From Heterostelium album PN500 (lineage: Eukaryota > Evosea > Eumycetozoa > Acytosteliales > Acytosteliaceae): a stretch of DNA of 64,000 nucleotides. The stretch covers positions 1,426,001 through 1,490,000 of the forward strand of contig NW_008805073.1 in the NCBI RefSeq assembly GCF_000004825.1, written 5' to 3'. The notes under the pieces are model-generated. The model ran no database searches and was not told where the DNA came from. It was given only the letters and a program-made list of their open reading frames with translations. Below are positions 6,601-62,728 of the stretch, in pieces. Position 1 is the stretch's first letter. Every line of letters starts with the position of its first letter. Position numbers and translations under genes: made by a program.

Positions 6601-7828
6601 CTGGTTTTTTGAAAAATAAGTTAAAATACTCACTGGTGAGTTAATTTTTCGTTCCCACGAATTCTCAGCCAAACTGCACGTTAGTTAGTTTTGGTTACTT
6701 TTTCAGTTAGTTCATATTAAAATTTAAATTAAAAAAAATTATATTTGAAGCACAATGACTAGTTTATTTGTTAATATCATTTGTAAATAATTTATTTGTT
6801 GTTATTATTGTTGTTGGCATTTGTAAATAAAGATTTGTTGCAATACAATAAGACACAATCTCTTAATGTACTACTTAGCATTGATTGTCTTCTTTCGGAA
6901 AATATATAATTAGCTTTAGAGAATACAGATTCAGAAGGCACAGAAGAAGCAGGAACACACATATATTTGCGAGCAAGTTGAGCAACATATGGAAATAGGT
7001 GATTATTTTGCGACCAGAAAATTGCAGGATTAGAATATTTGCCTAGTCTCTCTTCTTCTTCAGTTACATACTGATAATTGTGGAAATCCATTAATTGCTT
7101 CTTGAGTATATCTACATTAAGCTCTATTGGTTGTGGATCTTTACTATATCTATAAAATGGATTAAATGACACTGGTGATAAATCTATTTGAGGTGTGACT
7201 TTAGCGGGTGATGTTGTTGTAGTAGGTGTTGTATTTGGTAATGTTTCATTGACTGTTACTTTAGACTTGATATCATTGATAAATATGTTCAATTGTTTAT
7301 CGGTTAATGTTAGTTCAATCTTGTTATCATCGGTAGCTTTGATCGGTACAGTAGATATAGATGGTGTTTTTGTTGGTCGGCCAGCACGGCGTTTGGTCTC
7401 TGGATTTTGAACATCTGGGGCAACTGTTACGGTATTGTCCCATATGATCTTTAAATGGGACTTGTATAATGGAGAGAATAATAACGGCAAGACAATTGCA
7501 ATTTAGATAAATCAGGTGAGGATTTGAAGCAAAACACACTTTATAGTGATTTAAACAGTTTTTTACAAAAAAGAGCGAAAAAAAACAAAAATAGGTACTT
7601 TATCTTTATCTTTTATACTATTTAATTTAGATAATAGTAATAAATTATCCATATTTATTAAATAATTTTATTAATTAACTCAATTTTTTTCTAAAATCTC
7701 AATAAAATGAAAATATTTGCAATTATTTGCATTTTTTTGCTCACTGAAAAGTAACGAACTCACTGAAGGGGTAAGTTAGTAAACGTGCCACTAACTAACT
7801 TGAACTCACCCAAATTTGAAAAAACCAG
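6601..7828 (-). mobile_element. hAT-family DNA transposon, internally reduced
   Basis: The ends are inverted copies: CTGGTTTTTT at 6601 and the same sequence read inward from 7828, followed by G/CAAA. Subterminal zones repeat short GTTAGTTAGT motifs in inverted orientation (near 6682 and 7792), the arrangement hAT transposases bind. The flanks TTTTAATA (6593-6600) and TTTTAATT (7833-7840) could be an imperfect 8-bp target duplication, but the right copy sits four bases outside the repeat. Inside is only the C-terminal part of a transposase, so the copy is non-autonomous. Confidence 0.8.
6792..7490 (-). pseudogene. hAT transposase C-terminal fragment (dimerisation domain)
   Basis: Open frame of 232 codons. 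The last about 100 residues are the hAT dimerisation region: NPAIFWSQNNHLFPYVAQLA, then PASSVPSESVFSKA and FSERRQSMLS, in the usual order. The first half is Thr/Pro-rich linker (TTPTTTTSPAKV). The RNase H-like catalytic core and the BED zinc finger that should precede it are absent, so this cannot be an active transposase alone. It might be expressed as a dimerisation-only protein. It lies wholly inside the inverted repeats. Confidence 0.8.
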
Positions 7829-7917: not shown

Positions 7918-8447
7918 TTAATATGAATTATTATTTTTATTAATAACTACCGAGAATGGATTTAAATCAAATAGAGGATTAAAAGAAAGCTCTTTGATAT
8001 GGTGATTGGAAATGATTGAGGTGAATCCAGTTCTAGTATGTGTGAAATATAAGATCCATTGGAATTGTGGGTATAGAATGGTTGATTGATATTTCATTTC
8101 ACTTAAATCTACTTCGCATTGATATGATCCATTGTAAGCAGTTACTGAGAGAATAGTACCATTAATGATTTGTTGGTTCATATCGATTACTCCACATTGA
8201 ATCTGATGTCCTGAATTTGGATAGAAAGGATCCAATGATGTTATCAACTTCGGTCTAGAGTTGTCAAGTATCTTGGCATTGAAAGTATTGATTTGAGTAA
8301 CATAGTTGGTAAAATGATCAGATGTATATCCCTTGACCTCAAATTTTCCTTGAAAAATCGTACCATCTAGTGTTATACTGAGACCAATAATATTCGCAAT
8401 AAAGTAATGATCACCTATATAAATCTCTTGTATCCTCTATAAATGCT
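7918..8447 (-). CDS. Orphan exon of a secreted-type protein, unknown
   Basis: The open frame runs from an acceptor-like TATAG at about 8447 to TAA at 7918, about 175 codons, with no good internal start. The sequence is rich in aromatic, Ser and Asn residues with few charges (DGTIFQGKFEVKGYTS, YNGSYQCEVDL, PQFQWILYF), and has two cysteines, like beta-rich dictyostelid surface proteins. No upstream exon was found: the DNA above 8450 has many stops. It may be the remaining 3' exon of a gene whose front was lost, or a pseudogene. It lies 90 bp from the hAT right end. Confidence 0.4.
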
Positions 8448-9094
8448 ATTATATCGGTTATATTTTCAGCCAAAAGGTATATTGAACTTTAATTGACCTA
8501 ATAATCTAAGGATTTCTTTTCTACAATTGCTTCTACCAATCATAAATAGGATTTTTTTCATTATTTAATGATATTTCGCTCACAACCTTTACTCATCCAA
8601 ACAAAGAGATGACTATTATCTGTAGAGATATTTTGTTATAATTTTATTATATCATCAATACCAAGTCATTATCTTCTTCTGGGTAAGATACCTTCCTCTT
8701 GGTGAGAAGATCGATCTCGATTTCTATTTACTGTCTCACTTTCTTTTTCTGGAAAATTGATACTTTTTTGACATTCATTAGATAGAACATTTAGTCTCTC
8801 TGATCTAGCAATGTGCTCGGCTATATAATCTGTTAATCATCATATTTATTAATACTATCTAAATCAACCTTTAAAACTATTGTTTTAAAATCTTATTATC
8901 GAATATAACTGAGATATAAACAAAATATCTTACTATTTTGGATAAAATTATATGTTAACATAATTTATTTATACATGATATAATAAAAATATATGTTAAC
9001 ATAATTTATTTATACATAACTTAAACTAAAAAATTTAAAAAAAATCTTACCTGGTGTTGTCCGTCTAAGGACAATAGAGTAGCCGCTTAGGCAA
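8448..9094. other. AT-rich intergenic region with a direct repeat
   Basis: No gene seen. Some stretches between 8450 and 8830 are less AT-rich, possibly decayed coding sequence. The direct repeat is listed separately. Confidence 0.4.
8951..9017. repeat. 26-bp perfect direct repeat
   Basis: The sequence beginning TATGTTAACATAATTTATTT occurs at 8951-8976 and again at 8992-9017. It contains the palindrome TATGTTAACATA. Two exact copies 41 bp apart in non-coding DNA suggest slippage or a duplicated protein-binding site. Confidence 0.7.
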
Positions 9095-9364
9095 TGCTAG
9101 TACCTATCAAACAATATCAATAGTATACACCAGCCAACATATGACAACAATAATAATAAAAATAATAAAAGTCAACCAACTACTACTCTATTCCCAGAGG
9201 TCACTCCTATCAATGTTCGCCAATATCCGCTTCCAACTGAACTCTTCCAGTCTAGCCTAGCGTCATCTAAGCTCCCGATCTCCTCTACCATCGTGCCTGG
9301 CCAACCGGATGGAAAACACTTGGCAATCATATGTAAGAATTTCCACGATCGGGACAGGGTGTGA
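9095..9364 (+). other. Open frame of atypical composition, unknown
   Basis: About 90 sense codons without a clear start, ending at a stop near 9364. The last 60 codons (FPEVTPINVRQYPLPTELF ... IVPGQPDGKHLAII) are much more GC-rich than the surroundings, and use codons such as CCG and GCG that neighbouring genes avoid. The front is an Asn run. I recognise no family. The sharp compositional change and position beside a rearranged locus suggest a piece of a mobile element or a displaced exon; neither is shown. Confidence 0.35.
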
Positions 9365-9381
9365 TAGGAATTATTTTTTAT

Positions 9382-12017
9382 TTAATCTCTTGATTTTTTA
9401 AGTAGCTGTCTCCTTGTCATTTGCTCACCATCTGGTAGTGTAATTTCTTGTTTGTTGTTCGAAAGTGTTAATCCAATTTCTCGGTAAACCAATGTTTGTG
9501 GATGACCTAATCTTAATGATTCCAATAATAGTTGTTGTTTAATCATTCTCAAACCATTATTGAGAGTGATAGCTTCATATTGAAATAGTGTCATTCCAAG
9601 GTTATAATAGGGTTTATAATTCTTTGGACCACATTCTATTGATTTCAAGTATAGTTGTTGTTGTGTCATTGATTGTCCATTAGGAAGAGTGATTGATTCA
9701 CCTCTTGAAAGTGTATACGCGAGGTCATTATATGATGGGGAATCGGTTGGATAACATTCTATTGATTTCAAGTATAGTTGTTGTTGTGTCATTGATTTAC
9801 CATCATTAAGTGTGATTGATTCGCCAACTGAAATTGTATTTGCCAGACTATAATATGATCGGGTTTTGTTTGGACGACATTCTATTGATTTCAAGTATAG
9901 TTGTTGTTGTGTCATTGATTGACCATTAGGAAATGTGATTGATTCACCACTTGAAAGTGTCAATGCGAAGCAATAATATGATCTGTAATAGTTTGGATCA
10001 CATTCTATTGCTTTCATGTATAGTTGTTGCTGTGTCATTGATTGACCGTTATGAAGTGCGATTGATTCACTTAAAAGTCTCTTTGCAAGGTTAAAATATG
10101 AATGTGAAAGGTTTGGATCACATTCTATTGATTTTAAGAAAAAATTTTGTTCTGTCATTCTTTGTTCACCATTAGGAAGTGTGATTGATTCACCAGGTGA
10201 AAGTTTCACTGCAATGTTATTGTATGAATAGGAATTGTTTGGATCACATTCTATTGATTTCAAGTATAGTTGTTGTTTTGTCATTGATTGACCGTTATGA
10301 AGTGTGATTGATTCACCGCTTGAAAGTGTTATTGCAAGGTTATAGTATGAATAGGAATTGGTTGGATCACATTCTATTGATTTCAAGAATAATTGTTGTT
10401 GTGTCATTGATTGTCCGTTATGAAGTGTGATTGATTCACCAATTGAAAGTTTCGCTGCAATGTTATGTATGAGTTGGAATTGTTTGGATCATATTCTATT
10501 GATTTCAAGTAAAGTTGTGTTGTGTCATTGATTGACCGTTATGAAGTGTGATTGATTCACCACTTGAAAGTGTGTTTGCAAGGTTATTATATGAACTTGA
10601 ATCGGTTGGATCGCATTCTATTGATTTCAAGTATAGTTGTTGTTGAGACATTGACTGACCATTATGAAGTGTGATTGATTCACCACTTGAAAGTGTAGCT
10701 GCAAGGTTATTATATGAATTTGAATAGGTTGGATCACATTCTATTGATTTCAAGTAAAGTTGTTGTTGTGTCATTGATTGGCCGTTATGAAGTGTGATTG
10801 ATTCACCACTTGAAAGTGTGTTTGCAAGTTTATAATATGAACTTGAATAGGTTGGATCACATTCTATTGATTTCAAGTATAGTTGTTGCTGTGTCATTGA
10901 TTGACCATTATGAAGTGTGATTGATTCACCACTTGGAAGTGTATTTGCAAGTCTATAATATGAATTTGAATAGGTTGGATCACATTCTATTGATTTCAAG
11001 TATAGTTGTTGCTGTGTCATTGATTGACCATTATGAAGTGTGATTGATTCACCACTTGGAAGTGTAGCTGCAAGGTTATGGTATAATAGGGAATCGGTTG
11101 GATCACATTCTATTGATTTCAAGTATAGTTGTTGTTTTGTCATTGATTGACCGTTATGAAGTGTGATTGATTCACCAATTGAAAGTGTTAATGCAAGGTT
11201 ATTATATGATTTGGAATTGGTTGGATCACATTCTATTGATTTCAAGTATAGTTGTTGTTCTGTCATTGATTGACCGTTATGAAGTGTGATTGATTCACCA
11301 CTTGGAAGTGTATTTGCAAGGTTATGGTATAATAGGGAATTGGTTGGACGACATTCTATTGATTTCAAGTATAGTTGTTGTTGTGTCATTGATTGACCGT
11401 TATGAAGTGTGATTGATTCACCGCTTGAAAGTATTGTTGCAAGGTTATTGTATGAGTTGGAATCGGTTGGATCATATTCTATTGATTTCAAGTATAGTTG
11501 TTGTTTTGTCATTGATTGACCGTTATGAAGTGTGATTGATTTCACCGCTTGAAAGTCTTCCTGCAAGGTTATAGTATGAGTTGGAATCGGTTGGATCACA
11601 TTCTATTGATTTCAAGTATAGTTGTTGTTTTGTCATTGATTGACCGTTATGAAGTGTGATTGATTCACCAATTGAAAGTGTTATTGCAAGGTTATTGTAT
11701 GAGTTGGAATCGGTTGGATCACATTCTATTGATTTCAAGTATAGTTGTTGTTGTGTCATTGATTGACCGTTATGAAGTGTGATTGATTCACCGCTTGAAA
11801 GTATTGTTGCAAGGTTATAGTATGAGTTGGAATCGGTTGGATCACATTCTATTGATTTCAAGTATAGTTGTTGTTTTGTCATTGATTGACCGTTATGAAG
11901 TGTGATTGATTCACCAATTGAAAGTGTTATTGCAAGGTTAAAGTATAAGTTGGAATTGGTTGGATCATTTTTTATTAAAATCAAGTAATATTTCAAGTAT
12001 AGTTGTTGTTTTGTCAT
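9382..12017 (-). pseudogene. TPR-like protein of about 21 near-identical 41-aa units, frame-broken
   Basis: A tandem array with a 123-bp period. Each unit reads about SYxNLAxTLSSGESITLHNG, then QSMTQQQLYLKSIECDP. The two halves match the helix pair of a TPR (NLA...L, LYLKSIEC.P) with a longer turn than the normal 34 residues. The first unit carries a 7-residue insert in place of SIEC; the last degenerates to a basic end. The reading frame is split into three blocks (12017-11523, 11599-10505, 10407-9382) by one inserted T near 11541 and single deletions near 10466 and 10516. Unit-to-unit DNA identity is very high in the middle and lower at the ends, so expansion is recent. It may be a decayed gene or an assembly error in a repeat. 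Function unknown. Confidence 0.7.
9382..12017. repeat. Tandem repeat array, 123-bp unit, about 21 copies
   Basis: Direct head-to-tail units seen on the plus strand as a recurring 'attgatttcaagtatagttg' block every 123 bp. Copies between 10505 and 12000 differ by only a few bases; copies below 10400 are more diverged. Confidence 0.9.
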
Positions 12018-12648
12018 TGATATCGACTATCTATAACTTCAGGTATTTTTGATCTGAACTATTGGTTTTTATCTAAATATGATTCAAGAGTTTATCTATT
12101 TTTTTGGGATTTCAAAAAAAAAAACATTGAGCAGGCACAATAAACAATTTTTCTTCATTTGAAAAAAGACTTTTCTTAGATTAAATTTGTGTTAAAACCA
12201 CATGAAACCCCTGAATACCCAAAATAGTTTGTGGTGACCACAAAAAAATGATCAGTTAAAGTGGGAGATAGCCCAAAAAATTAGTTAAGAGCTATCGAGA
12301 AAAAGAACCCACTTTAAGAACTATTTTGAAAGATTCCGGACCTGTCTTTGCAATCTATTGATGAGCTTTTCCAAAGTGGTATGAAGTTCGGGTGGGAGAC
12401 AAATGTTAGACTCTAAATTGTTGGTTGACAACAATGCAACAATCGAGTTAAATAATGGTTTGGTAGAGAAAATAATGTTGATCACCAAGAGGAGCAATAA
12501 CCAAAATATTAGAATCAGATACCACACAGTTCAACTGTTTTTTTAAAGTGTAAATCAACAATTTAGCAGTTGAAGTTTTTAAGAAAAAAAAATAATTTGC
12601 TCTGGTGCGAAATATTCTAGTTTTTTAAATGACTAATGAAAGTTAGTT
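12018..12648. other. Intergenic region with a hairpin and a small unknown ORF
   Basis: Between the TPR-like array and MAU2. Holds an inverted repeat (listed) and a minus-strand frame at 12321-12527 of 68 codons: a hydrophobic Leu/Ile start followed by a polar tail (LPPELHTTLEKLINRLQ). I cannot assign it; it may be a transposon remnant. Confidence 0.35.
12258..12315. repeat. Imperfect inverted repeat (hairpin)
   Basis: Outer arms AAAGTGGG (12258-12265) and CCCACTTT (12308-12315), inner arms GATAGC (12267-12272) and GCTATC (12291-12296). The two nested arms fit one stem with a bulge. It could be a terminal structure of a small mobile element or a structured RNA. Confidence 0.5.
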
Positions 12649-21171: not shown

Positions 21172-22904
21172 ATGATAATAGATAACAACAACAATCAAAC
21201 AACAACAAATAAGTTGGTAGGCTTTTCACATTATTTATTAAACTATATTGTTAGAAATATAGAAGAGAACATCGATAGAATATGTTTTAGTTTGGTTTGT
21301 AAGAGATTGTATAACGAAAGAGATAAATATCTATCTTTCAATACAGATTCTATTAATATTGGAGGTTGTGATAATGTCTTTATTCAATACAACCATCCGC
21401 ATTTCAAACTACCATCGTATGACTCTACCCTAAGAAGATCAATACAATCAAAGAATGATTGTAATCTCTATATATCATCGGATATCGATATATCATTGAA
21501 TGATTTTTCTTTTAGATATAGTAAGTAGTTATAAATATATTCATAAAACAAATTATTATTATTATATTAATTATATCATTAACCAATCTTTTTTCTTTAT
21601 CTACTACTTCTTTAGAAAATATCAAAACATTAGAAAGTATTCCAACATTTATAACAAATTTGATTATATCTGTTAAAGTACATCGTGAGGATGAATCTGA
21701 GCATATATACAAATTGCTGAGCAAGTCAGAGTCGGTAAGACAGTTGATTGGTTGTCATACGCTGAAGTATGGATTACCAAAGTCATTGGAATCTCTTGTT
21801 TTCACTCATGATTTCAATGAACCTCTTGTAAGGGGATCTCTTCCCAATGGTTTGAAATCGCTTCATTTCGGAGTGCGTTTCAACCAACCTCTACAAAAAG
21901 GTATACTACCAGAGAGTCTATCATCCTTGGCATTCTGTGGAGGAGCATTCCAACATGTTTTCGAGCCTGGTATGCTTCCCTCATCGCTAAAAACATTGTT
22001 CCTAACTGAATACACACAGACTTTCAAAATGGGTGCACTCCCTCACCACCTGGAGTTTCTCAGCTATTCTGGCGCGAGAACTGTACTTGCCAAAGGTATT
22101 TTACCTACCACTATCCACACTCTACGTATGGCGCCTGACATATGGATTCAAGGCGACTTGGACCTACCAAATCTCAAAGATCTAAGTATCTATCTTCATG
22201 AAACCAATGATATTTCGCTTCCTGTTATCAACCTTGATCTGTTGCCATCAAAGCGATTGAATACTTTCAGGGTTGACCTTCCGTGCAAACTCACTGGCAA
22301 GATGCCTACCACCATTACAGATTTGAATCTCGATAACTGTGAATTTAATATCGACTCTCTATTCCCGAAACCGTTGGAGTATCACTTGGAGAGTTTGAGA
22401 ATCGATAGAAACTATTTGGCACCGATTCCATCGAACGTGAAAATCAACCGGCTATTCATTGAAGGTGAGAAATCGCCAGCCGCATCTGACCCTTTTGATT
22501 ATCTTGGTGAACTTCTACCGCTGGAGATAAGTGCACCGTTCGACCTTTTATATCAAACCTCGGAGGTTCCCTTACCAAACTCTATCAAGACTATACATTT
22601 TGCCGAGAGTGGTGTAAGAGCACTGGTTAATGTTCCACCATTACTGAATACTGTAACTTTTTCAAGACAAACAACACTCCAAAAGCTACCGAATTATATT
22701 ACGAAAATCACTAATATCATTTTTAGAGACGATTGGAATGATAGTAATATCATTATAAGAAAGTTGGACAATCATTGCTATTTATTGTTTGGTTATTATT
22801 GTAGTAAATTAGTTTCTAAACTATTCCACCAATCAAAATTGTTAAATTATTTAAAACCATATAGAGAGTGGGGAAAGAACAAAACTCAATTAAAATTAAA
22901 TTAA
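21172..22904 (+). CDS. FNIP-repeat protein with F-box-like N-terminus
   Basis: Two exons, 21172..21520 and 21616..22904, 545 aa. The N-terminus (HYLLNYIVRNIEENIDRICFSLVCKRLYN) is the F-box-like helix pair usual in this family. From about residue 165 come FNIP/IP22 units of 22 residues with the pattern F...FN.PL..G.LP..L..L.FG (for example HDFNEPLVRGSLPNGLKSLHFG, 22 residues per turn). These form an LRR-like solenoid and are hugely expanded in dictyostelids. An adaptor role in SCF ubiquitin ligases is inferred from the F-box. The start ATG at 21172 is the first in frame after a stop. Confidence 0.85.
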
Positions 22905-26981: not shown

Positions 26982-29900
26982 TTAACTGCCTATTCTTGAT
27001 AGTTTGGATTTCAATTTTTGAGATTCATAATTGATAATTCTTCTCTTTTTGATGTAAATGATTGCACCAACAGCAGCAGCAATAGTAAATATGCCGACAA
27101 CAGTGACAATGGTAGCGATTTCCCATGCTTTCAAACCTTTGGTCTTACATCCTCCATCAACGTTGATTAGTACGTTGAAACTTGGATCGATCAAACAGTA
27201 TGCACATTGCGGTAAAGAAACACCAATCCACATTTGGTCATCAGTTTGATTGACAATTTCATTCTTTGAATAGGCAGGTCTACCGTTTGAAAGAACAACA
27301 GGTAAGAAGTTTCCATAGAAAGCAACACCATTCTTAATAATCTTTAGGTACTGTACAGAGTTATCAAGTTGATTTACACCAATGGTTTCTTTTGACTCAG
27401 CACAATCCGATGGTACATTACTTTGTTCAGTGGAGAATACAACTCTTAGAGTATTTAAGGTTGATAGATACTCCCATCCATCTATTTGAACGGTTACTTT
27501 AAGTGAATTGGGTGGTAAGTTTGATGTTACACCTGCAAACTCAACGGTTCTTGGATCTGGCGAGTATTGAATGGTTACAATTACAAAAAGATCTGGTCTT
27601 GTATTGTTTAGATAATAGTAGAGGCTTGTTAATGTTTGGTTTTCTTCTTTTCTATAGTTCCAACTATTAGTTAGCAATTCAAAGGCAACAGACGCGTCTG
27701 GACCTAGCTCTTGAATCGATACCATATTGAAATCGAATTGATGGTCATCAGCAATAAAAGAAGCGGATGGAGTAGTTGAGTTTGGATTAATAGTTCCACC
27801 AGATGTCTTTGAGTCGCAATAGAATCCACTGAATCCACCAGCACAACTGCAATATCCATTTACACAACTACCATGATTATTGCATATCACAGGATTGGAA
27901 TCAGTTGGATCGATACAATATGTTAAGTTTAATGGAACTATTTAGTTTGATAACAAATAATTAGTAAAAATATAAACAGTTATTCTAACAATTTACTTAC
28001 CAATTACCATATTTGAATAATGTACAAAATTGTCGATGGTTACTGTTAAATTGGTTTGTCCCTTTGGTAAGGATGAAACACCACAGGTTATATTGTAGAT
28101 ACCCCAGAATGAGACTTTACAGCTTTGTTGACCGATTGTAACTACTGGTTTACTATTCTTTCTACCAAAGAAACCATAGATTTGTACATCACCACCCTGA
28201 GTAGTTACTGTGGAGGTTGAGGTAACTACAGGATACATCATCACAAAAGTTCCATTCCCATTGAATGAGAGATATGGACTTGACATGTTAACACTTAGAA
28301 GCTCTGACGTAAAGTCAATGATTGGTTTGGTTATAGTACAATTCAAAGTATCGGCAACCAACGATGTAACAACACAAAGTTGATTATTTACATTTGTACT
28401 GTAAATCCAAGTACTATTGAAAGTACCTTTAATAGAAACATATAACGCAAACTCTGTTTGTTGTCCAGAGATAGATTGAATATTTGTAACTTTTAAAAAA
28501 ATAAAAAAAAAAGTTAGAAAATAAATATAAAAAAAAGAAATAAAATAAAATACATACCATCAGTGACCCAATCTAATTGATAATAAAGTTGGAATATTGA
28601 TGAAAACATAACATTTTGACTACCAAAAGATGGAAGATTTGAAAGTTCAAAGAGTGAATTTGGTACAATTACTTTCAAGTTTGGTGAGGTATCTTCATTG
28701 AAACCATATCCAAGATTTTTACCACTAATAGTGATTTTACCTTGTGATGAAGGTGTCATTACATATGTTATTGAATTAATTTGATAGGCTTTTGAAATTT
28801 TAGTAAATGGTTGAGATGGTTTTAATATTTGAAAACTTACGACAAGTAAAATTTGGGTCGATTTGAATAGTTGATGGCATTCCATTCGAAAGTAAATCCC
28901 AGCAACAATAAATGCAATCTGGAACTGAGGTAATATTAGTTCCTGTCAGTGAGAGTTTACTGGTGGCACAGAATTTTTCTGAAACACTTCCATTAACCAG
29001 CTCCATATTGTTGATACTCAAACTAAAGAACTTAATAGCTGAATATTCATCTGGAATTGTACCGGTCATGCTATTATTGTATAAATATCTATATTATTCT
29101 TTTAATTAATATTAAATTTAAGTTTTTAAATTTTTAATTTTTACTTACAGAGTAATATTCTTATCTGCAAACCATTTAGCCTGGGGCCAAGAATTATAAG
29201 TTGGACTTTCAATGATATAACTAGTTATAAATTTTTAATAAATATTAAAGCTAAATATAATTTAATAAAATTGTTATTTTCTTACAGTTCTGATAAATTC
29301 TTTGCATCTATAATTGGAGAGCTTATACCGGAGAATTGACTTTAATTGGGGTTTGTTAGTATTACAGAATTTTTTATTTTAAAAGTCTAATACTTACACT
29401 CTTTTTAATGAAGGTAGCATTGTCAAGTTCATTGGTGAAAAAGATCCATCAAAAAAGAAAAGAGATTTAATGTTTGGTGCATCCGTTACAGTACAATCTA
29501 CATTTTGCAATACCCTAATAAAGTAGAAATTAATAAATAATTATTTTAATATTTTTATATATTGTAATATCTTACAACAAATTTAGTGTTTTAGAACTAA
29601 GAATAAGAGAAGCTGACGAAGCTGCATTTAAATTCCTATATTATATGAATATCAAAAAAAGTCAAAATTAAATATAGGTTTTTTTAATTTCAATTTTGCT
29701 ATAACTTACAATCCTTCTAATATTGGAAAATTATCACCAATGATGAGATTAAGATTAGGAATATAAAAGACTGTTAAAAATCTAATTTTGTATTGCTCGT
29801 TGGGATTAATTATGATCTTCATAGAAGGATCGATTTGACCATATAAAGATACTTTATAAATATTTAATAAACTACTTGGGATATCTGAGGAAAGCGTAGA

Positions 29901-59352: not shown

Positions 59353-61044
59353 ATGATGGAATCAAATTCTTTCAAAAAAATAATAAATAATAAATATTTG
59401 TCAAGTTGTATATTTAGATTTATAAATGAGTTTGGAAGTAATCAAGTTGCTAGATACTACAAGTGGTCTCACGTGGTTGTATCTCTACCAACGTTGCTCA
59501 CCTATGGTTATTTAGATCAGTTGAAACGCTCGATCGATAATAATTTGATATGTTTTGTATCACATCATCAAGCCTCAGCTGTCCATGCTATTGATCTGTT
59601 CAATCACATAAGAATCTACTTGCACTATATCATTAGGTTTGGCTATTACGATATGATAGTGTATCTCTCTAGTAAATATAGAAATAAGAATTGGTATGTC
59701 GCAGACTGTGTAATCAATTCACTGGCGTATCGTCGTTGGAATTTCGTTCGATTCTTCATGGAGAATAGATTCTCTGAGATCGATCGGGAGTTCTACCCAA
59801 AGATTATATCTTCTGCAGCCATCTCCACCGACATGGATATATTGAGATACACATGCGAGAAACTCAATTACTTTCAAATCGACAAGCTATCTTTCTATCA
59901 TCTGGTGGAGTGTGGATATTCCAATATCGTTAAGTACTTTCTCGAGCCTAATCAAAGCAATAAGAGCGGTACAATGGAATGTCCTTCGGAAGCGGCAGAG
60001 AGAGCAGCTCAGAGATCTGCACCAAACCTACTAGAGTATTTCAGTGAGAATCATCCATCGACAATAACAACTAAAGTATTGGATACACTTGCCAAGCAAG
60101 GTGATTTCACACTCCTTAAGAAGCTAATTGGCCGTCACACTAAGGTTGAATGCTCTACTTTGGCAATAGATCAAGCGGCAATGAATGGAAAGCTAACAAT
60201 CGTTCAATGGTTAACAGAGAATTCAAAGAGTGGATGTTCTACAGACGCGCTAGACTATGCAGCTGAACGAGGTCATCTAAATATTGTTGAATATCTGCAC
60301 CATAATCGAGTGGAAGGATGTACAAAGCGAGCATTAAATTTAGCAGCAACAAACGGTCACCTGGAGGTCGTTAAGTTCTTACATTATAATCGAAGTGAAG
60401 GATGTACTACCGCTGCAGCAGATGGTGCATCACAGAATGGACATCTTGAAACACTTCGGTTCCTACTGGACAATCGTAGTGAGGGTTATTCAAACCAGAT
60501 ATTAGACAAGACAGCCAAGAGAGGATCGATAGAAACACTCAAATTCCTTGGAGAGCGAACTACAGATTTGAAAGTACACAGCAATACTCTTAGCAATTGT
60601 TCAAACTTTGGGTATTTAGAGGTGATCCAGCATTTGGTGGAAGTCTATCGAGTTCCAATCGATAGCAAATCGATCGAAAAAGCAATCATTTTCAACTATA
60701 TCGATATAGTTAGATATCTGCTGGCTAACAGTGATGGTGTTCATAGAAGATACCAATGTAGTCCAGAACAGTTGAAAATGATCATAACAAGCGATAACCT
60801 TGATATGTTAAAGTTACTTTGGGAGTATCAGACATTTACACAGCTGAGTTTCGGTACTCTCGCATTACATGGTAGATTTGAAATGATACAGTACTCAATA
60901 GATAATAAGATTCATCTGTATGGAACAGATATTACTACACACATGTTTAAACTCAGAGGATTTCAATCTAGATTTCCATTACGACATGATTTCGAACAAT
61001 GGTATTTAGATTTATTTGCAAAAATAAATATTACAAATAAGTGA
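59353..61044 (+). CDS. Ankyrin-repeat protein, 563 aa
   Basis: Single exon. The N-terminal module (IFRFINEFGSNQVARYYKWS, then VVVSLPTLLTYGYLDQL) is that of the dictyostelid ankyrin family; about 12 ankyrin-type units follow, e.g. ALDYAAERGHLNIVEYLHHN, ALNLAATNGHLEVVKFLHYN. Residues 210-400 are almost the same as in the convergent paralog at 61127-62728 (shared ENHPSTIT, DTLAKQG, NRVEGCTKRALNLAATNGHL). Ends are more diverged. No catalytic domain. Confidence 0.88.
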   Translation: MMESNSFKKIINNKYLSSCIFRFINEFGSNQVARYYKWSHVVVSLPTLLTYGYLDQLKRSIDNNLICFVSHHQASAVHAIDLFNHIRIYLHYIIRFGYYDMIVYLSSKYRNKNWYVADCVINSLAYRRWNFVRFFMENRFSEIDREFYPKIISSAAISTDMDILRYTCEKLNYFQIDKLSFYHLVECGYSNIVKYFLEPNQSNKSGTMECPSEAAERAAQRSAPNLLEYFSENHPSTITTKVLDTLAKQGDFTLLKKLIGRHTKVECSTLAIDQAAMNGKLTIVQWLTENSKSGCSTDALDYAAERGHLNIVEYLHHNRVEGCTKRALNLAATNGHLEVVKFLHYNRSEGCTTAAADGASQNGHLETLRFLLDNRSEGYSNQILDKTAKRGSIETLKFLGERTTDLKVHSNTLSNCSNFGYLEVIQHLVEVYRVPIDSKSIEKAIIFNYIDIVRYLLANSDGVHRRYQCSPEQLKMIITSDNLDMLKLLWEYQTFTQLSFGTLALHGRFEMIQYSIDNKIHLYGTDITTHMFKLRGFQSRFPLRHDFEQWYLDLFAKINITNK

Positions 61045-61126: not shown

Positions 61127-62728
61127 TTAACAGTAAGGTATATTTAAATAAAGAGATTGTTTCATTTTTTCAATGGAACATTTTGGACCATAAATATGAA
61201 TATTGTTGTCAAGAGCATATTTAAACATTTCATATCTGTTGTTATACGAAAGTGTCCTGATACATAGTTTTGCACATAATTTCTTCTCCCATAGAATCTT
61301 TAGTAGATCAAAGTAGTTTTTCTCGACGACTTTTATCATTCGCTGATTGTTGCATTGGATAGGCTGGAAATCAGCAAACTCTAGAAGATATTTAAGCATA
61401 GTTGTGTCGTTATTCAAGATAGCCAAATCGATAGCGGCATCATTATATTTCATACCACATTCCTGGTGAAGGTATTTGACGACTTCAAGGCGACGCGATG
61501 ATACACAGTTGTTAAAGATGTTGGTATTATTGAATCGTAGTGAGGGACCTCCTTTTTTAATTGAAATAAGGTATTTCAATACTTCTAATTGACCTGCATG
61601 AGCTACTTTATCCAATATATTAACGCCATACTGTTCGGTTCGATTGTCAAGCAGGAATTTAAGTGTTTCAAGATGTCCATTGACTGCTGCGCCTTCTGCC
61701 GCCTTGGTATTACAACCTTCACTTCGATTATAATGTAAGAACTTAACGACTTGTAGGTGACCGTTTGTTGCTGCTAAATTTAACGCTCGTTTTGTACATC
61801 CTTCCACTCGATTGCTATGAAGAAACTCAACAACACTCAGATGACCTCGTTCAGCTGCATAATCTAGTGCATCGGAAGTACATCCAGTTTTGGAGTGTTC
61901 CGTTAACCACTGGACAATATTAAAGTGTCCGTTCATCGCTGCTAAATCAATCGCTGCTGTAGTACCTCCAATGCTATGCTGCTCAAGTAGTTGACGCATA
62001 ATACCCAAACTACCTTGCTTGGCAAGTGTATCGATGACTTTGCGTGTTATGGTAGATGGATGATTCTCACTGAAATACATAACCATTTCATTGCTCTGAT
62101 AATGTGCAGCGTCGACGGCGGAATCGATTGGACACTCCATAACACAGTTGTTATTCTTGCCATTCGGTTCCAAGAAGTATTTAACCACATCAAGCTTACC
62201 ACCTATTATAACAGAGTTTAGGTTGTCTTTTGACAGATAGTATCGGTCAAACTTTTCACATACGTATCGGACTATATCGATTGAACAGCCTATTGCGCAC
62301 ATTGACACAGCCACCGAAATCAATGAAGAATTGAAATCTGAGAATCTATTGTCAACGAAGAACCTGATGTATCTTTCCTTTCTCATAACTAAAGATCTAT
62401 ATAGTGCGTTGTGCAATGACCACTTTACATTTTTAAACTTGTTGTGGAAGAACTCGAGAATCTCCATATGATCGAATCTGACAAGGTACTCGAGATGATC
62501 GTTGAACGATTGGAAACTGAGATTGTTGTTTCCACGAGTCATCTTTTCTATTATCGGTAAATAACCATAGCTCATTGCTGCCGGTATTGAACAAACAACA
62601 TCATTCCATCTTAATGATTTAATTTTCGATAATCTACTTGTTATTTCTTTTACATAACTAAATATCAACTTGAATAATATTTTATTTCTAAGAATATTAA
62701 AAAATTTGATTGTTTGTAAGTTATTCAT
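61127..62728 (-). CDS. Ankyrin-repeat protein, 533 aa, convergent paralog
   Basis: Single exon on the minus strand, ends 82 bp from the end of its partner. Same architecture: N-terminal VKEITSRLSKIKSLRWNDV, SIPAAMSYGYLPIIEKM, then ankyrin-type units. The middle block (GCTSDALDYAAERGHLSVVE, RVEGCTKRALNLAATNGHL) is highly conserved with the partner, while the front and the last 130 residues are diverged, suggesting gene conversion confined to the core or selection on it. Confidence 0.88.
   Translation of the reverse strand: MNNLQTIKFFNILRNKILFKLIFSYVKEITSRLSKIKSLRWNDVVCSIPAAMSYGYLPIIEKMTRGNNNLSFQSFNDHLEYLVRFDHMEILEFFHNKFKNVKWSLHNALYRSLVMRKERYIRFFVDNRFSDFNSSLISVAVSMCAIGCSIDIVRYVCEKFDRYYLSKDNLNSVIIGGKLDVVKYFLEPNGKNNNCVMECPIDSAVDAAHYQSNEMVMYFSENHPSTITRKVIDTLAKQGSLGIMRQLLEQHSIGGTTAAIDLAAMNGHFNIVQWLTEHSKTGCTSDALDYAAERGHLSVVEFLHSNRVEGCTKRALNLAATNGHLQVVKFLHYNRSEGCNTKAAEGAAVNGHLETLKFLLDNRTEQYGVNILDKVAHAGQLEVLKYLISIKKGGPSLRFNNTNIFNNCVSSRRLEVVKYLHQECGMKYNDAAIDLAILNNDTTMLKYLLEFADFQPIQCNNQRMIKVVEKNYFDLLKILWEKKLCAKLCIRTLSYNNRYEMFKYALDNNIHIYGPKCSIEKMKQSLYLNIPYC

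Follow-up and report, generated by a model that had tools for sequence, protein, structure and literature searches.

The canonical TPR is a unit of 34 residues whose helix A and helix B recur along a solenoid, as in O-GlcNAc transferase, SPINDLY and the consensus TPRs, with conserved small and aromatic core positions and a variable concave face. The available text of Magliery and Regan (PMC1261162) places the greatest variability at TPR positions 2, 5, 9, 12, 13, 33 and 34, which are exposed on that face. In fungal NLRs, the TPR, ANK and WD repeats are described as near-identical units with variable concave positions, preceded by a NACHT or NB-ARC domain and marked by positive selection and repeat-number polymorphism (Dyrka et al. 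2014, PMC4986451, available part). In Chlamydiota, families joining TPR or LRR repeats with F-box, OTU and other domains have been reported (Domman et al. 2014, PMC4209131); the part of that text available makes no mention of a 41-residue unit. Among titles and the opening parts of abstracts, mostly of journals outside subscription, no literature was evident on a 41-residue or hairpin TPR, or on TPR expansion or transfer in dictyostelids, a weak indication that the 41-residue hairpin TPR is undescribed. The repeat presented here is of that type; it departs in length from a very common protein-binding repeat and can be recognised by its motif and period.

The window analysed is a stretch of 64,000 nucleotides from the amoeba Heterostelium album PN500. 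Its minus strand carries, from 12017 down to 9382, an array of 21 units of the 41-residue TPR, counted by unit starts, the last of which lies at 9546. The first ATG (12017) coincides with the start of helix B of unit 1, and unit 21 is followed by a hairpin, a short helix and the stop codon (9382-9384). The preliminary description had proposed about 21 units of exactly 123 bp; the number and period agree with the unit starts and with TRF (9624-11967, period 123, 19.1 copies, score 3194), while exact length applies to 14 of the 20 spacings, the remaining six being 135, 124, 122, 122, 126 and 120 bp.

Three one-base departures in length divide the array into three ORFs, all on the minus strand. 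The first, 11523-12017, encodes 164 aa and holds units 1 to 4, with a unit 1 of 135 bp; the second, 10505-11599 (364 aa), holds units 5 to 12 and parts of units 4 and 13; the third, 9382-10407 (341 aa), holds units 14 to 21 and the C-terminal half unit. The departures lie in unit 4 (11513-11636, 124 bp by unit spacing) and in units 12 and 13 (10408-10651, 122 bp each), where frame-breaking single-base changes had been noted earlier, near 11541, 10516 and 10466. The gene may thus be dead. It may equally be intact, with the breaks introduced by assembly or sequencing errors in a difficult repeat, an explanation to which we give somewhat less than an even chance. All three departures are of a single base and fall among closely similar units, an error-prone setting, and assembly goes wrong more easily in a repeat array than in a unique gene; on the other hand, the window's other long ORFs are open.

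All three ORFs match TPR_17 (PF13431) above its curated cut-off of 24.4 bits: ORF 9382-10407 with 216.5 bits (E-value 7.8e-67), ORF 10505-11599 with 302.5 bits (2.1e-94, the best) and ORF 11523-12017 with 150.1 bits (1.4e-45). By Pfam membership the units are therefore genuine TPRs, and their period of 41 residues sets them apart from the 34 residues of the canonical form, in keeping with the initial view of a TPR-like but non-standard repeat. Scattered short Pfam matches, a few of them above the cut-off and none with a single passing stretch, also fall on the array; the many small matches of this kind to repeats, in the window and in the chlamydial arrays described below, are taken as repeat artefacts. 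The best sequence matches of the array among solved structures are engineered TPRs and O-GlcNAc transferase.

Structure prediction suggests where the additional residues lie. For the middle ORF alone, AlphaFold gave one model with a pLDDT of 85 and four others at 34-50; for the C-terminal ORF, supplied with an alignment of window translations, five runs agreed (pLDDT 88.9-90.3). Both models contain a repeating series of strand, turn, strand, helix, helix, with antiparallel helix pairs stacked as a solenoid. A beta-hairpin is thus predicted between helix A and helix B of each unit, which gives a form to the unusual turn between helices remarked on at the outset and would distinguish the array from canonical TPR solenoids, with which it shares the helix A/helix B repeat, the conserved small and aromatic core positions and the variable concave face. 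The nearest solved folds found by Foldseek are ordinary TPR solenoids, with query TM-scores of 0.39-0.58 among the ten best per model.

The units have multiplied more than once. Among the core units, defined below, silent differences amount to 3.96 per pair on 27.2 silent sites, about 0.15. Several pairs are closer than this core average (2/4 and 2/5 at 98% identity, 3/7 at 96%, 9/10 at 95%, 6/8 at 94%), so duplication was repeated and partly recent. Near-identity of the middle units including silent sites, as first claimed, is thus borne out in part, and unit turnover is supported. The C-terminal units are more divergent, unit 21 being 50-60% identical to the others. Duplication in higher-order blocks was considered and rejected, unit identity being independent of distance (88.8-91.4% at lags 1-9, units 2-14).

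The distribution of changes was analysed in 14 of the 21 units, all of exactly 123 bp (units 1, 4, 12, 13, 15, 16 and 21 were left out), and in a core set of ten of these (units 2, 3, 5-11 and 14). Events are inferred changes counted once per column. TPR numbering was mapped by hand, and the six groove codons are the published variable positions other than 33. Within helix A, variation in the core units falls on residues equivalent to TPR positions 34, 2, 5, 9, 12 and 13; positions 3, 6 and 10 change less, and 4, 7, 8 and 11 do not change at all. The six groove codons hold 16 of the 26 amino-acid events in the core (expected 15%, p 1e-7), the others being four elsewhere in helix A and six in helix B. 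Hairpin and buried codons hold none of the 26 (expected 35%, p 1.5e-5), and yet 4 of the 12 silent events (expected about 42%, p 0.77; Fisher p 0.007 for amino-acid versus silent events). This absence is limited to the ten core units, as in the 14-unit set the hairpin has 11 amino-acid events and the buried codons three. The concentration in the groove, together with the lack of change in hairpin and buried codons, indicates that divergence among the core units took place in coding sequence whose frame was constrained.

For either unit set, changes are more concentrated on the seven published variable positions than in any of 100000 permutations; when permutation is restricted to codons 16-30, 644 and 161 of 100000 attain the observed concentration in the two sets. 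Some observations count against the groove reading. Within the core, unit position 3, which belongs to helix B, ranks fifth in variability, and the published groove position 33 is invariant, so not all variation lies at the groove. The comparison of changing with silent events, groove versus rest, gives no significant excess of the kind that diversifying selection would leave (Fisher p 0.16 in the core, 0.35 in all 14 units).

Two mutational explanations for the divergence of helix A were also considered. Pairwise silent difference is 0.24 in helix A versus 0.09 elsewhere, as a divergent helix-A cassette between homogenised flanks would produce; per column, the silent excess in helix A is not significant (6 of 12, expected 36%, p 0.37), and that at the groove is marginal (4 of 12, p 0.048). 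Selection is preferred as the explanation, and some cassette effect is possible. In diversity-generating retroelements mutation is confined to A; here, judged by eye, all bases are involved, and this source was rejected.

These patterns bear on whether the three indels have left the array a drifting pseudogene. That it is one seems quite possible, if not quite probable. Three frame breaks within 2.6 kb speak for decay, with none found in the neighbouring DEAD-box helicase and GCD14 genes, where profile matches continue across the introns. Against it, no stop codon is seen within the units apart from the frame switches, an outcome with a chance of about 0.06 over 38 neutral point changes, and the hairpin and buried codons of the core are free of amino-acid events. 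The lack of in-unit stops and the constrained core codons mean that, if the gene is dead, it died recently.

Taken as a gene, the locus would encode, or would until recently have encoded, a free-standing TPR solenoid about 21 units long, with every unit built of helix A, beta-hairpin and helix B. The A helices would line a predicted groove that may bind peptides or protein surfaces, and the hairpins, near-constant in the core units, would probably form a structural edge. Growth of the array by repeated unit duplication, with changes tolerated or favoured mainly in the groove, would give each unit a somewhat different contact surface. Expression of the array and binding of a ligand are inferred.

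Neither the groove position of the variation nor the relatives of the array in Chlamydiota figured in the preliminary description. A first scan of genome contigs with whole ORFs gave no match. With three-unit rows as narrow peptide patterns, one contig was found, JAKEHU010000017.1 of a Chlamydiae MAG, whose protein (L001) has 1053 residues and units mostly 41 residues apart; it is 45% identical to the window ORF over 349 residues, in register, with the hairpin motif common to both. When this chlamydial array served as query, 8 of 232 Chlamydiota genomes matched at E<=1e-20, and with the window array as query 10 of 232 matched at E<=1e-10. In a wider set of 332 relatives the same eight genomes matched and the 100 further genomes did not; since the phylum search comprised 232 genomes, these 100 are taken to fall outside Chlamydiota. 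Three extra phylum control sets (G300, G250 and G280) amounted to only 2, 2 and 1 genomes and were uninformative.

The chlamydial array proteins (L001, L020-L029) have the 41-residue unit and motif of the window array and are internally more divergent. Units were located with a profile built from 14 window and five chlamydial units. After phase correction their steps are mostly 41 residues, some being 38-47 or about double, and those of L025 and L037 are 40. The hairpin motif between helix A and helix B, whose fold is predicted for the window array, accompanies the 41-residue step in both lineages. Two plasmid proteins serving as TPR controls step differently, one (L041) by five steps of 34, one of 78 and one of 41, the other (L042) by two of 68. 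In one Chlamydiota genome (G102), a second array of the 41-residue repeat (L022, 5637-7591, minus strand) runs through three consecutive overlapping ORFs, so that a chlamydial copy also appears split.

Among the chlamydial units, too, variability is highest at the groove positions (3.26 bits versus an overall 1.87, p 1e-4; based on 47 of the 81 units matched in L020-L029, with none from L025 or L026 and L001 left out), and variability by position correlates between chlamydial and window units (rho 0.55). Groove variability is general to TPRs, and the chlamydial pattern therefore supports the groove and not common descent. A tree of 87 of the 132 matched stretches, with one outgroup unit and no useful root, separates the 19 window units included from the rest by a single split (support 0.615), which fits local growth of the array. 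Chlamydial units are on average 34-48% identical to those of the window, with L027 and L001 the closest, and any transfer would accordingly not be recent.

A repeat common to an amoebal genome and to some Chlamydiota, a group that includes amoeba symbionts, suggests gene exchange. The simplest history would be lateral exchange of a protein-binding TPR module, in one direction or the other, between amoeba and chlamydial symbionts, followed by expansion; we hold this tentatively, at a little under even confidence. Opportunity exists, as D. discoideum is commonly host to Chlamydiae (PMC11114107, available part). The absence of the repeat from 224 of the 232 Chlamydiota genomes at 1e-20 counts against such exchange. 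That patchiness, with 8 of 232 genomes matching, instead favours an old amoebal or general eukaryotic family acquired by Chlamydiota from their hosts. The occurrence of the repeat beside MYND, F-box and LRR domains in one chlamydial protein (L021) points the same way, and Chlamydiota may have acquired other eukaryote-like domains similarly; but the array, unlike two of its neighbours, which fit introns, shows none, a weak argument against its being an old amoebal gene, and we consider this origin rather unlikely. The sharing may also reflect a wider distribution, the genomes searched being non-eukaryotic.

Convergence, in which a TPR in the amoeba and another in Chlamydiota independently gained the seven-residue hairpin, appears very improbable. 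TPR insertions are common in general. Groove variability in both lineages is likewise usual for TPRs (PMC1261162, available part), yet convergence has to account for an alignment of 349 residues that is in register, 45% identical and alike in its hairpin motif, as against the 19-24% identity of ordinary plasmid TPRs.

Those plasmid relatives comprise five records at 19-24% identity to the array, and the two examined (L041 and L042) proved to be ordinary TPRs. A viral source was also rejected: two alignment scans and one DNA-pattern scan of viral contigs revealed no relative of the array, nor did a search of phages. A BFVD fold search gave three matches at E<=0.001, with 13-14% identity, to giant-virus or archaeal-virus TPR/Sel1 proteins.

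Domains accompanying the repeat were sought by a Pfam scan of ten chlamydial array ORFs. MYND, F-box and LRR matches in L021 are above the cut-off with passing stretches. In L001, a pentapeptide-repeat match (PF00805) ahead of the units reaches 39.2 bits against a cut-off of 20.2, with no single stretch passing; L025 has several families above the cut-off and no passing stretch, and the beta-propeller matches in L024 are below it. No accepted partner domain was found by Pfam in the other ORFs scanned, and an OTU-like stretch noticed by eye in L020 had no Pfam support. L001 and L021 thus carry further domains, in contrast to the window array, which has none accepted. By description, the comparison for the chlamydial proteins is with the TPR/F-box/OTU families of Domman et al. 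(2014, PMC4209131, available part).

Near-identical hairpin-TPR units with variable concave positions resemble the repeat domains of fungal immune receptors (Dyrka et al. 2014). By this analogy, the amoeba could have co-opted a chlamydial host-interaction repeat as a fast-evolving recognition or decoy protein diversified mainly in its groove, an improbable reading in our estimation. In contrast to the fungal NLRs, neither a NACHT nor an NB-ARC domain is present in the three ORFs or in the 69-residue ORF upstream (12321-12530), and the window, as a single sequence, offers changes strongly concentrated on the groove, with no significant excess of changing over silent events, where the fungal repeats have positive selection and repeat-number polymorphism. 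If the link between amoeba and Chlamydiota is true, the repeat would mark the exchange of genes between amoebae and symbionts and provide a natural test of TPR groove variation on a constant frame. It would also be a candidate module for target recognition by chlamydial proteins, of which one has ubiquitin-pathway-type domains.

The window has a G+C content of about 31%. A cohesin-loading-factor-like gene adjoins the array, and a dynamitin gene is also present. The exons of the nearby DEAD-box helicase and GCD14 genes are joined in frame by GT-AG introns, with GTAAGC, GTAAGT, GTATGC and GTATGT as likely donors; several acceptors are compatible, the 96-base final intron of GCD14 being the exception. 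Such eukaryotic neighbours make the array part of a eukaryotic chromosome in the assembly. Pfam further identifies an FNIP-repeat gene (21660-22904, plus strand) and a ComC supersandwich domain (26982-27890, minus strand), the latter accompanied by an EGF-like match that falls slightly short of the cut-off; FNIP repeats and the ComC supersandwich domain are typical of dictyostelids, and both point to one here.

The locus had been called transposon-rich. What was found is a hAT transposase C-terminal dimerisation region, apparently without the rest of the element (6792-7490, minus strand; PF05699, 2.9e-14), and, directly past the array stop codon, an unclassified segment of higher G+C content (9040-9370, 42%) with short ORFs on both strands, and nothing further. 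A 69-residue minus-strand ORF in that segment has no Pfam match, and the segment is possibly a mobile-element remnant.

Some further open stretches flank the array on the minus strand. One of 172 residues (7918-8436) has no accepted Pfam match and resembles, by eye, dictyostelid surface proteins; the upstream stretch of 69 residues (12321-12530) has a hydrophobic segment and no Pfam match. Elsewhere in the window, two adjoining ankyrin-repeat genes in opposed orientation (59353-61044, plus strand, and 61127-62728, minus strand) are 77% identical over 441 bp, which points to an inverted duplication.
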